Assembly (NCBI GenBank): GCA_020628165.1
Contig: JAHDFM010000002.1
Coordinates: 1-51,795 of the forward strand
Origin: Bdellovibrionales bacterium
GTDB taxonomy: Bacteria; Bdellovibrionota; Bdellovibrionia; Bdellovibrionales; UBA1609
Length of the DNA stretch: 51,795 bases
Reading direction: 5' to 3'
This document shows positions 39,529 to 44,332 of the stretch, piece by piece. The notes below the pieces were generated by a model, which was not told where the DNA came from, did no database searches, and was given only the letters and a program-made list of their open reading frames with translations. Both the position numbers and the translations under genes were made by a program. Each line of letters starts with the position of its first letter. Positions within the stretch are counted from its first letter, which is position 1.

Positions 39529-40789
39529 AATTGATGAGCCACTATGTGATCAGCCACAAACAGACTTTTATGCTTGTGTTCAGCACTGGACAAAAATTTT
39601 TTCAAGGTTAGAGCACGAGCAAATTGTTCTGAGTTTAGAAAATAGTTTTTCTTTTTTAGTTTGTTGTTTGTCGGCCTGGATGAGTAACAAAAAAGTCATC
39701 GTTCCAGCCTCGTTAAATCATCGGCTGAATATTGATTCAGGTGATAACTTTTTTATAGTTGACGATGATCAATTTGATCAACAAGAACTTTCAAAGTCGA
39801 CTTATTTGCCTCAAGATCTTGATCCTATTTCATTAGACAGCCAAATAGTATTTTACACTTCGGGCAGCACTGGTGACCCTAAAAAAATCACTAAGACATT
39901 TGCTAATATTTTATCAGAGGTTAGGGTGTTAGAAGCGACTTTTGGAAAAGCCACTGACAATGCCAAGTTTGTTTCGAGTGTTCCACATTATCATATGTAT
40001 GGATTTTTATTTAAACTGTTCTGGCCTTTTTTAACAAAAAAGAGTTTATCATTTTCTGGGGTCAAATATCCGGAAGAATTACAAAATATTACGGAGCCAT
40101 TTGTTTTTGTCACCACTCCTGGCTTTTTACAACGAGTTTACTTCAATGATTCAGTGACGTTTAGTCATTGTTTGCAAGTATTCACTTCTGGTGGAGCTTT
40201 GCAAGAGGAGCAAAGAGCTATCTCTAACAAATACTTTGCTCAACATCCTGTTGAGATCTACGGCAGCACTGAGACCGGCGGCATCGGTTACAAGTCTTCA
40301 GCTTCAAGACAGTGGCAACTTTTTGATGAGGTCGAACTTCTGGCTCAACAAAATGAAACGTACATTCAAAGCCCATTTTTTTTCGAAGATGAACTTCATC
40401 TTGACGATAATGTTACTTTGCTTTCAGACAACAAGTTTGTTTTGGGACAAAGAAAAGATAGGGTTGTAAAAATAGAAGAAAAAAGAACTAGCCTAACTTT
40501 AATAGAAAACTTGATTCAAAAACAATCATGCGTTGAGCAATGCAAGTGCCTAACCTTGCCTGTGAATGGTCGAGACAAGGTGGTTGCAGTCATTCAATTA
40601 AGGCGAGAAAACAAAAACTTAATGACTAATGACCGTCTTAAACTAACGAGTCAAATTAAAAGAGTTTTATCACAACACATTGATAAAGTGTTTTTACCTA
40701 AAAAAATAAGATATGTTGAACGCATCCCAACCAATGAGATGGGAAAAATAACACAAGAGCTTTTGGAGAAATTATTCAATGACCAATAA
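39518..40789 (+). CDS. AMP-dependent acyl/aryl ligase
   Basis: This 423-residue adenylate-forming enzyme starts at GTG 39518 within the previous gene. The P-loop-like A3 motif is FYTSGSTGDPKK (112-123), the A5 region is EIYGSTETGGIG, and the C-terminal lysine is in NEMGKITQELL. It is shorter than typical acyl-CoA ligases (about 500 or more), as in aryl-polyene clusters, where it loads the aryl acid onto an ACP. The exact starter acid is unknown. Confidence 0.9.
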   Translation: MKYRIDEPLCDQPQTDFYACVQHWTKIFSRLEHEQIVLSLENSFSFLVCCLSAWMSNKKVIVPASLNHRLNIDSGDNFFIVDDDQFDQQELSKSTYLPQDLDPISLDSQIVFYTSGSTGDPKKITKTFANILSEVRVLEATFGKATDNAKFVSSVPHYHMYGFLFKLFWPFLTKKSLSFSGVKYPEELQNITEPFVFVTTPGFLQRVYFNDSVTFSHCLQVFTSGGALQEEQRAISNKYFAQHPVEIYGSTETGGIGYKSSASRQWQLFDEVELLAQQNETYIQSPFFFEDELHLDDNVTLLSDNKFVLGQRKDRVVKIEEKRTSLTLIENLIQKQSCVEQCKCLTLPVNGRDKVVAVIQLRRENKNLMTNDRLKLTSQIKRVLSQHIDKVFLPKKIRYVERIPTNEMGKITQELLEKLFNDQ

Positions 40790-41126
40790 CTTACCTGAAT
40801 TTAGCGTAATCAATAAAACGGACAACGATTTGAGCTTGCAACTGTCGTTTGGCAAAGATTATATTTTTTTTAAAGGACATTATCCAACATTTCCATTGCT
40901 ACCAGGCATGATACAAACTCATTTGGCCATTGAGTTTGCTAAGCAAGAATTGAACATTAATGATGCTTTCACTGGGGCGAGGTCTATAAAGTTTGCACAG
41001 CCAATTCGTCCAGAGTCGACGATTGAACTCAATTTAAAATACGATTCAGAAAAAAAAATCTTACAATTCAAATACCTCGCAGATGAAGATAGTTTTTACT
41101 CAAAAGGAGTTTTAACATTTCAATAA
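40779..41126 (+). CDS. Hotdog-fold 3-hydroxyacyl-ACP dehydratase (FabZ/ApeI-like)
   Basis: This 115-residue hotdog-fold protein contains FKGHYPTFPLLPG (32-43), the FabZ-type catalytic motif with H34. It is one of two dehydratases in the window; the other is at 48292. With the ketoreductase it makes the repeated double bonds of the polyene. The start overlaps the ligase stop by 11 bases. Confidence 0.88.
   Translation: MTNNLPEFSVINKTDNDLSLQLSFGKDYIFFKGHYPTFPLLPGMIQTHLAIEFAKQELNINDAFTGARSIKFAQPIRPESTIELNLKYDSEKKILQFKYLADEDSFYSKGVLTFQ
41104..41119 (+). promoter_or_regulatory. Ribosome site placing a non-canonical ATT start
   Basis: AAGGAG (41104-41109) sits 7 bases before ATT at 41117. No ATG, GTG or TTG occurs in this frame between the upstream TAG and TTG 41159, and TTG 41159 has no ribosome site. 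See the glycosyltransferase-acyltransferase entry. Confidence 0.55.
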
Positions 41127-42781
41127 CTCCCACTCTCGCTTATAAGCCTTGTTTTGTTTTGCCTTGTTATCAACACTCGCAATTCATTGACTCTGTTTTA
41201 GATGGACTCAAAGACTATGATTTACCTGTAATAGTTGTGAACGACGGCAGTGACTCCGAGCACACAGAAGTGCTTAAAAAAATAGACAGCGAGAAGCCTT
41301 GGGTGAGTGTTATTCACCACAAGAAAAATCAGGGCAAAGGTGGGGCGGTGAAAACAGCGTTGCGTGAAGCTCATAGCCGTGGGTTTTCACACGCCTTGCA
41401 AGTGGACTCCGATGGACAGCATGAGCTAGTAAAGGTGAAAGACTTTTTGAGGCTTTCACAAAAATCTCCGAACAGTGTTATTTCTGGGGAGCCTCAATTT
41501 GATGAGAGCATTCCTAGTTCTCGATTGTATGGTCGCAAGTTCACCCAGATGTGGGTGACTTTCGAAACTCTCAGCACTGACATCAAAGACAGTATGTGCG
41601 GCTTTCGCATATACCCACTCAAACAAGCTATAAAAGTATTAGACACTTATAAACTTGGTCAGAAGATGGATTTTGACATTGAGTTTTTGGTTAAGTTTTA
41701 TTGGCAAGGTGTAGACATTGATTTTTTACCAGTCAAAGTGAACTACCCTGAAGAGGGTGTTTCCCATTTTAATTTGTTTAATGACAATTGGTTGATCACT
41801 AAAATGCACACGCGCCTCATGTTTGGTATGTTATTTCGCTTGCCTAAGTTATTGTGGCGTAAAAAAAAAGATCAATCTCATTGGGCAAAAATCAATGAGC
41901 GCGGTGGGCACTTTGCACTAACAACAGTTTTTTGGATTTATAAAGTTCTTGGTTTTAGAGTGATTAGCTGGCTTGTGAAGCCAGTGGTTTTTTATTTTTA
42001 TTTATTTGCTAAAAAAGCCCGAGCTCACTCAAAGAATTACATTGAAATATATAAGTCCTATTGTAAAAGCCAAGGTGTGCAGTCCAAAAAAATTAGCAGT
42101 CACTCTCACTTTCAGTCGTTTGGACAAATGGCTGTTGATAAAATGGCTGTGTGGCATGATGATTTAAAGTTTGAACAATTGAATCAAAACAATGTTGCTG
42201 AGCTCAACAATCTTCATGATGAAAATGAAGGGCGTGTTTTTATCAGTTCTCATTATGGCAATATTGAAATTTGTCGAGCTATGAGTGCAAACTTTCCTTA
42301 CATAAAAATAAATGCGTTGATGTACCAAAGCAATGCCAAGCATTTTTTCAAATTGCTCAATCGTTTAAATGTAAAATCAACCATCAATGTGATTTACATC
42401 GATAAGTTTGGCATTGATTTAGCCATGCGTTTGCAAGAAAAGGTGGCTCAGGGAGAGTGGATCTTTATCCTTGCTGACCGCGAGTCTGTTGGATCTAGCC
42501 AGCATAGCCTTGAGTGCGACATGCTGGGTCAAAAAGTCAGTCTCCCTAAGGGGCCGTTTTTATTAGCCTCTTTGCTTAAGGTGCCGTCCTACGTTTTTCA
42601 TTGTTTTAAGGGTAAAAATAAATTTAACTTTCGTATAAAACCATTGATAAATCAACAAGATATGGGGAAACGAGGGCGCCGAAATTTAGACAACATGGCA
42701 CAAGTCTATGCTGATGAATTGCAGGAGCTTGTCTTGAATGACCCTCATCAGTGGTACAACTTTTTTAATTTTTGGAAGTGA
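41117..42781 (+). CDS. Fused GT2 glycosyltransferase and LpxL-like acyltransferase (predicted ATT start)
   Basis: The N-terminal half is a GT-A glycosyltransferase: the frame upstream of TTG 41159 reads AYKPCFVLPCYQHSQF, giving the first beta strand, then VVNDGSDSEHT, the DxD region VDSDGQHE and MCGFRIYP. The C-terminal half is an LpxL/LpxM-like acyltransferase, with the HX4E-type motif SSHYGNIE and later FILADRESVG. The fusion (about 554 residues) is characteristic of aryl-polyene clusters, where it may glycosylate and acylate the lipid-linked polyene. Starting at TTG 41159 would delete the first strand and has no ribosome site, so an ATT (41117) or ATA (41123) start is proposed. The dehydratase stop lies at 41124-41126, overlapping this start. 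Confidence 0.85.
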   Translation: MSITPTLAYKPCFVLPCYQHSQFIDSVLDGLKDYDLPVIVVNDGSDSEHTEVLKKIDSEKPWVSVIHHKKNQGKGGAVKTALREAHSRGFSHALQVDSDGQHELVKVKDFLRLSQKSPNSVISGEPQFDESIPSSRLYGRKFTQMWVTFETLSTDIKDSMCGFRIYPLKQAIKVLDTYKLGQKMDFDIEFLVKFYWQGVDIDFLPVKVNYPEEGVSHFNLFNDNWLITKMHTRLMFGMLFRLPKLLWRKKKDQSHWAKINERGGHFALTTVFWIYKVLGFRVISWLVKPVVFYFYLFAKKARAHSKNYIEIYKSYCKSQGVQSKKISSHSHFQSFGQMAVDKMAVWHDDLKFEQLNQNNVAELNNLHDENEGRVFISSHYGNIEICRAMSANFPYIKINALMYQSNAKHFFKLLNRLNVKSTINVIYIDKFGIDLAMRLQEKVAQGEWIFILADRESVGSSQHSLECDMLGQKVSLPKGPFLLASLLKVPSYVFHCFKGKNKFNFRIKPLINQQDMGKRGRRNLDNMAQVYADELQELVLNDPHQWYNFFNFWK

Positions 42782-42790
42782 ACAAGTAAC

Positions 42791-44332
42791 GTGATTGAAT
42801 TTAGTGCAGAACAATTTTCGATAGAGAGTCTTTGTCAACTTGCCGTTGGTGATGAGAAGGCACAATTATCTCAATCTCCTGAATTCAAAGATCAAATTGA
42901 TTCATCCTATAACTTTTTACAGACTCTTTTAAAAACTGGAAAAGAAATTTACGGAGTTAACACAGGCTATGGCGATTCGTGTGTGCGCAAAGTTTCTGAA
43001 CACAATGTTAAAAACTTACCGCTGCAATTAACTCGTTATCATCAATGTGGTTTGGGTGAGTATTTTTCGTTTGAACAAGCTCGTGCCATACAAGTGGCCA
43101 GAGTGGTTTCGTTAAAGCAAGGCAAATCGGCTGTTCGTTACGAACTACTTAATTTTATGGTCGATCAGCTCAATAAGGGCATTGCTCCTTTGATTCCACA
43201 AGAGGGGTCGGTGGGCGCAAGTGGTGACTTAACTCCACTTGCTTACTTAGCAGCCACCTTGGTAGGTGAAGGGCATGTGATGTACCAAGGTGAGGTATAT
43301 CCAACCAGCGAGCTGTATAAAAAGCTAGAGATCACTCCTTTAGAGTTACAACCAAAAGAAGGCTTGGCACTCATGAACGGCACTGCGGTGATGACAGCTC
43401 TTGCTTGTCTTGCCTATGAAAAGGCCGATTACCTTGCACGTTTGGCTTCAAGGATCACATCTCTTGCTAGCCTTGCTCTCAAGGGAAATGCTTATCACTT
43501 TGCGGAAGGTTTATTTGAAGCTAAGCCTCATCAAGGGCAAAGTTTAATTGCGCAAAGAATTCGTCAAGACTTGCAATCTAAATCATCTCGACAAGAGCAA
43601 GACAAGCGCATTCAGGACCGTTACTCCATTCGTTGTGCACCTCATATCATCGGTGTTTTGCAAGACTTTTTGCCATTTGCAAAAAACACCATCACAACTG
43701 AGTTGAACAGCGCCAACGACAATCCACTCATTGATCCTAAACGTGAGCAAGTTCTTCACGGGGGCAATTTTTATGGGGGTCACATTGGTTTTGTTATGGA
43801 CTCACTTAAAAATTTAATTGCTAACGTTGCTGATTTGATTGATCGTCAAGTCGCTTTACTTGTCGATACCAAATTTAACAATGGTCTTCCATCAAATTTA
43901 TCCTTTTTAAAAGACAAAGAAGATATAAGCATTAACCATGGTTTTAAGGCCTTACAAATTTCAATCTCAGCTTGGACGGCAGAAGCTCTAAAAAACACCA
44001 TACCTGTCAGTATTTTTTCTCGCTCTACTGAGTGTCACAATCAAGACAAGGTTTCCATGGGAACAATCTCAGCCAGAGATTGTTTGAACGTGATTAGACT
44101 GACAGAGCAATGTGCCGTGGCTGGTTTGATGATCTCTTACCAAGGAGTTCGTTTGAGGGCGCATCAGTCAGAACTAGAAATGAAAGACTTATCTCAAGAC
44201 GTCCTCAGTTTTATGGAGTCCTTTTCAAAAGAATTCACTCTCTTGAGCGAAGACCGCCCATTAGAACCAGACTTGCGCAATTTACTAACTCTTGTGAACG
44301 AGCAAAAATGGTCGTTGTATCCAAACAATTAA
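42791..44332 (+). CDS. Aromatic amino acid ammonia-lyase (HAL/TAL family)
   Basis: This 513-residue lyase starts at GTG 42791 and has the MIO cofactor triad A143-S144-G145 in GSVGASGDLTPLAYLA and the catalytic Tyr near 54 in IYGVNTGYG. The selectivity pair, which is Ser-His in histidine lyases and His-Leu in tyrosine lyases, reads Tyr-His here by eye alignment (TRYHQCGLGE). It should release ammonia from an aromatic amino acid, probably to give the aryl acid for the polyene. Such genes occur in some aryl-polyene and flexirubin-like clusters. The substrate is not proved. Confidence 0.9.
   Translation: MIEFSAEQFSIESLCQLAVGDEKAQLSQSPEFKDQIDSSYNFLQTLLKTGKEIYGVNTGYGDSCVRKVSEHNVKNLPLQLTRYHQCGLGEYFSFEQARAIQVARVVSLKQGKSAVRYELLNFMVDQLNKGIAPLIPQEGSVGASGDLTPLAYLAATLVGEGHVMYQGEVYPTSELYKKLEITPLELQPKEGLALMNGTAVMTALACLAYEKADYLARLASRITSLASLALKGNAYHFAEGLFEAKPHQGQSLIAQRIRQDLQSKSSRQEQDKRIQDRYSIRCAPHIIGVLQDFLPFAKNTITTELNSANDNPLIDPKREQVLHGGNFYGGHIGFVMDSLKNLIANVADLIDRQVALLVDTKFNNGLPSNLSFLKDKEDISINHGFKALQISISAWTAEALKNTIPVSIFSRSTECHNQDKVSMGTISARDCLNVIRLTEQCAVAGLMISYQGVRLRAHQSELEMKDLSQDVLSFMESFSKEFTLLSEDRPLEPDLRNLLTLVNEQKWSLYPNN

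Follow-up and report, generated by a model that had tools for sequence, protein, structure and literature searches.

A putative AUU or AUA start codon for apeJ in an aryl polyene cluster of the Bdellovibrionales

Where does translation of apeJ start in a bacterium in which the reading frame of this gene has no ATG, GTG or TTG ahead of its conserved N terminus? The question is posed by an aryl polyene cluster in the window, i.e. the whole stretch of 51,795 nucleotides analysed here, which is part of a contig of 199,806 bases from a Bdellovibrionales genome (3.19 Mb, 56 contigs). Judged from the sequence, apeJ is probably a real and intact gene that is translated from a non-canonical AUH codon within the overlap with apeI, with AUU as the likeliest codon, followed by AUA. 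The features concerned are listed in Table 1.

The cluster spans ~36.6 kb to 51.4 kb and its gene order, compared by eye from lists of open reading frames, is that of the sister genome G003, a genus-mate in which the neighbours of apeJ stand in matching order. Pfam was applied to apeD (acyltransferase), apeH (AMP-binding), apeI and apeJ; the other cluster genes are named by order or by eye. According to its Pfam matches (PF00535, E 4.9e-14; PF03279, E 2.8e-10) and folds, apeJ encodes a family-2 glycosyltransferase followed by a lipid-A-type acyltransferase, and it adjoins apeI within the cluster. The structure model of ApeJ, for which 28 sequences were used (mean pLDDT 81, pTM 0.57), resembles GtrB/ArnC and PatA/LpxM in Foldseek, and the H-x4-E residues of the acyltransferase are retained. 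ApeJ of E. coli (c1194), a glycosyltransferase/acyltransferase encoded after apeI in the order apeA-R (PMC8253772, in part), has the same domain pair and the same place. Within the order, three of 140 genomes carry apeJ at E <= 1e-60, the source genome included. Directly after apeJ, at 42791-44332, follows a gene that by eye resembles those of aromatic ammonia-lyases, as in G003; it may supply the aryl starter. Weak candidate starts are seen at other genes of the cluster, namely GTG at apeH (39518), at the ammonia-lyase-like gene (42791) and, within a GTGA overlap, at apeP (48292), and possibly TTG within a TTGA overlap at apeR (49451), where the next codon is ATG.

Table 1 Features around the apeI/apeJ junction (positions in the window)
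Feature	Position	Strand	Remarks
apeI, hot-dog dehydratase	40779..41126	+	ORF; Pfam PF22818 ApeI-like, E 2.1e-15
In-frame TAG closing the apeJ frame upstream	41090..41092	+	
Shine-Dalgarno-like AAGGAG	41104..41109	+	-8.4 kcal/mol with anti-SD; within the codons for Lys-Gly of 'SKG' in apeI
Possible hairpin GGAGUU (41106-41111) / AACUCC (41125-41130)	41106..41130	+	exact 6-bp inverted repeat over the SD; ATT and ATA in the loop
ATT, favoured putative start codon of apeJ	41117..41119	+	7-base spacer from AAGGAG; geometry as infC ATC in the same genome
apeJ	41117..42781	+	554 codons counted from ATT; GT2 + lipid-A-type acyltransferase
ATA, alternative putative start codon of apeJ in ATAA overlap	41123..41125	+	aligned with G003 ATG in ATGA overlap
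apeI stop TAA	41124-41126	+	
Predicted beta-1 strand of the GT-A domain (P-C-F-V-L-P-C)	41147..41167	+	model residues 11-17 from ATT; conservation
TTG, first canonical codon of the apeJ frame	41159..41161	+	would remove 4 of 7 beta-1 residues; SD +0.4 kcal/mol

The apeJ frame lies -1 to that of apeI, which it overlaps from 41093, and runs from there to 42781 over 562 codons without a stop or frameshift. An earlier note on this DNA had stated that no ATG, GTG or TTG exists upstream of TTG 41159 in the open frame, and the frame scan, starting at 41093, is in full agreement. A late first canonical codon is by itself not special, and apeJ stands out only in its context: 13 of the 156 contig ORFs with 150 codons or more, apeJ being one of the 13, have their first canonical codon at least 18 codons into the frame. 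Of the 12 others, ten were analysed with Pfam, a set without one frame that extends over two stretches and one that contains masked bases; eight gave a match, in no case starting before the late codon, and two gave none.

Can TTG 41159 be the start? A genome scan found 171 relatives, of which the best 80 were used as the homologue set, with codon positions numbered from the P of the PxYxH motif. All 80 of these best homologues have a canonical codon at least seven codons before the motif, the nearest such codon being exactly 10 codons upstream in 52 of the 80, and the gene in the window has none. Cys at codon -4 (79/80), Phe at -3 (78/80) and Tyr or Phe at -7 (76/80) are conserved in the same best 80 of 171, and the window's apeJ encodes Cys, Phe and Tyr at these positions, whereas TTG 41159 is codon -1. 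Counted from ATT it is residue 15, inside the predicted beta-1 strand, and the pairing with the anti-SD in front of it contrasts with a median of -5.95 kcal/mol for 154 long open reading frames of the contig. TTG 41159 as a normal start was therefore rejected: since it lies within the predicted strand and after the conserved Cys-Phe pair and lacks a Shine-Dalgarno (SD) site, translation should begin upstream. Thus, both the homologue N termini, whose alignment had been proposed as a check, and the predicted structure uphold the earlier claim that the first GT-A strand is encoded upstream of this codon. Like known genes with AUH starts, apeJ has no canonical codon upstream of its conserved N terminus, and the reasonable start codons there are ATT 41117 and ATA 41123 only. 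AGG 41105, also one mismatch away, was set aside as it falls within the SD.

The AAGGAG placed seven bases before ATT 41117, pointed out in the earlier note, is indeed there, giving an AUH codon with a strong SD at a compatible distance. In pairing energy it surpasses 79% of the 154 long contig ORFs, a conservative comparison because the start of each control was chosen partly by SD energy. Motif rarity was rejected as evidence, since AAGGAG followed after five to nine bases by ATH was seen 10 times in the window, with 7.76 expected and 25 of 100 shuffles reaching 10. The AAGG part of the SD belongs to a Lys-Gly pair that the relatives L002/L031, L003/L045 and L032 also encode; the gene of the uncultured Bdellovibrionales bin L031 is identical in sequence to that of G003, and that of the Pseudobdellovibrionaceae bin L045 to that of G011. 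At gene ends, five of 156 long contig ORFs (apeI, being too short, is not among them) have within their last 12 codons an ATH, in one or the other of the two remaining frames, whose SD reaches at least the strength of -8.4 kcal/mol, and none of these five leads into a long frame that lacks an adjacent canonical codon. Among the best 80 of 171 homologues, codons -25 to -8 contain an open in-frame ATH in 22, in no case with an SD that reaches -8.0 kcal/mol. Evidence against an AUH start of apeJ is that the codon is not conserved, that the SD is partly due to the Lys-Gly codons of apeI and that the combination of SD and ATH occurs at the five other gene ends; chance is possible.

The lineage appears, from its sequences, to be able to use AUH starts, because among 14 genomes of the order, 13, the source genome included, have AGGAG six to seven bases before an in-frame ATC, ATA or ATT at infC, and because four of the 14 (G047, G048, G002 and G008) lack any in-frame canonical codon ahead of the IF3 core. 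In the remaining genome, G004, the nearest core is AAGGA, nine bases before ATT. The infC gene of the source genome would start at ATC with the same 7-base layout as the ATT of apeJ; an ATG follows three codons after the ATC. In E. coli, infC is autoregulated (PMC13009471, in part). The two genes are alike in having AGGAG followed after six to seven bases by AUC, AUA or AUU in place of AUG, and differ in that the codon of apeJ is not conserved and its product is not IF3. With a changed initiator tRNA in view, ARAGORN was applied to 29 tRNA loci and yielded 28 distinct tRNAs, two of them with CAT; among these 28, with 150 of 231 candidates scored, neither a typical initiator tRNA nor tRNAs for His, Ile and Pro were identified. 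In E. coli pcnB, an AUU start reportedly limits translation of an enzyme, and AUU as start of an enzyme gene is what is favoured for apeJ. Unlike apeJ, pcnB is not known to begin in an overlap with the stop of a preceding biosynthetic gene in an operon. A search of the source genome for pcnB gave two matches, both below the family cut-off.

AUH starts are also described for Staphylococcus aureus, i.e. AUA for ccpN and citZ and AUU for cvfC1, with ~10% of the expression obtained with AUG in poor medium and, for ccpN, up to 30% in rich medium; ccpN and cvfC1 have an extended SD, and the AUA of citZ is confined to one strain lineage (PMC13009471, in part). Those starts were mapped by ribosome profiling and reporters, whereas that of apeJ is predicted from the sequence. 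The SD of apeJ is stronger here than in G003 (-8.4 vs -3.8 kcal/mol), and by analogy a stronger SD may accompany a weaker codon in apeJ as it does in infC, cvfC1 and ccpN of S. aureus (same source). However, this gain over G003 could be drift in two bases. The non-canonical codon is not kept among relatives: G003 has ATG and none of the best 80 of 171 homologues is without a canonical codon, so that the codon conservation of a regulatory AUH start of the infC or ccpN type is not found in apeJ.

Which of the two codons is used? The overlap reads ATAA and not ATGA and thus holds no canonical start codon; the ATA shares these four bases with the apeI stop, and the overlap of the two genes would be 10 bases with ATT and four with ATA. 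Coupled ATGA overlaps, with stop and start overlapping and the SD inside the upstream gene, are described (PMC6728339, in part), and apeJ is alike in the stop/start overlap and in the SD within apeI and unlike in its AUA or AUU start. A search of that paper's text for ATAA gave no match. A start at AUA 41123, in which an ancestral ATGA overlap became ATAA with the apeI stop kept and AUA serving coupled re-initiation, has in its favour that its codon offset from the SKG motif of apeI equals that of the ATG in G003, that weak codons in four-base overlaps occur at apeP and possibly at apeR, and that AUA is used by infC, ccpN and citZ of S. aureus (PMC13009471, in part). In G003 the ATG has a weak SD, so this start probably relies on coupling, and the ATA of the window could do so likewise. 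Against AUA, it is 13 bases away from AAGGAG, whereas ATT has the infC-like spacing of seven bases. The earlier note had named ATT 41117 or a coupled ATA 41123; both geometries were confirmed, and so was the strong SD at ATT, while ATA is at the position of the G003 ATG. Going by the sequence we would favour ATT over ATA on modest evidence: AUU 41117 as the start codon is a tentative assignment, somewhat short of an even chance, and AUA is rather unlikely, both shares being contained in the probability given above for a non-canonical AUH start.

A start at AUU or AUA may work as follows. Ribosomes finishing apeI at the UAA would unfold whatever local structure covers the SD and would restart on the weak codon with low efficiency, which would result in a low ApeJ output coupled to apeI. 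The start should also be sensitive to initiation factor IF3, since in vitro, with AUU read by a CAU anticodon, less full-length product was made when IF3 was raised (PMC10158994, in part). In E. coli, partial pigment and late intermediates remain upon deletion of apeJ (PMC8253772, in part), so low ApeJ could be tolerated. A possible hairpin over the SD was noticed after the fact. It folds with -7.2 kcal/mol (z -0.68), which is not significant as 42 of 200 shuffles fold as well; an exact partner is present at two of the 98 AAGGAG sites of the contig, that of apeJ included, and the hairpin was not seen in the relatives L031, L032 and L045. As a proven element it was rejected on account of its z score and its absence from these three relatives. 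A deliberate double brake, in which AUU is read only under lax IF3 discrimination and the hairpin hides the SD unless apeI is translated, is quite unlikely; if true, how much pigment is attached to its lipid anchor would depend on translation of the polyene dehydratase as well as on the state of the initiation machinery.

The most probable of the explanations without an AUH start, although unlikely, is a wrong assembled base, or a minority strain variant in the consensus, that conceals an ordinary start in the overlap. G003 has an ordinary ATGA overlap exactly here, and the 56-contig assembly may be a metagenome bin: 16S rRNA was not found in it, in a search that also missed five of 14 control genomes. 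On the other hand, the neighbouring cluster genes showed no broken frame, the stronger SD would be left unexplained, and by base rates a natural non-AUG start should be commoner than a single consensus error that falls on one of ~3,000 start codons. It is slightly less probable still that the start was lost and apeJ is on its way out, being silent or giving a little truncated product from TTG 41159. This codon is the first canonical one, and the partial pigment of the E. coli apeJ deletion (PMC8253772, in part) suggests that a loss is perhaps tolerated, but the long frame without stop or frameshift and the kept H-x4-E residues speak against it, and TTG 41159 is without an SD and cuts beta-1. 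Both a consensus error and a recent start loss would leave mostly the same picture as a non-canonical start, except for the SD gain over G003.

Fusion of ApeI and ApeJ by -1 ribosomal frameshifting from apeI, for which the relative frame and the overlap from 41093 would be suitable, is very improbable. On inspection, A-AAA at 41102-41105 could let one Lys tRNA slip, but a two-tRNA slippery heptamer was not found. A fusion was rejected since none of the best 80 of 171 homologues is fused: in 76 the end of apeI lies in a different frame, in three it shares the frame but is followed by a stop, and in one apeI was not identified, and the open apeJ frame extends at most 56 codons above the motif.

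Starts at AUU and AUA are already known elsewhere, and a start of apeJ at one of these codons would be one further instance, seen once, that leaves the understanding of translation initiation unchanged. A search of the literature on AUU and other non-canonical starts, infC, coupling, aryl polyenes of Bdellovibrio and biosynthetic clusters gave no aryl polyene case among the papers listed. If true, a gene of a biosynthetic cluster would be added to the few bacterial genes that start at AUU or AUA, and annotation restricted to ATG, GTG and TTG would clip the first GT-A strand of ApeJ. As one change can remove the AUG from an ATGA overlap and yet spare the upstream stop, such starts in coupled operons may be under-reported.
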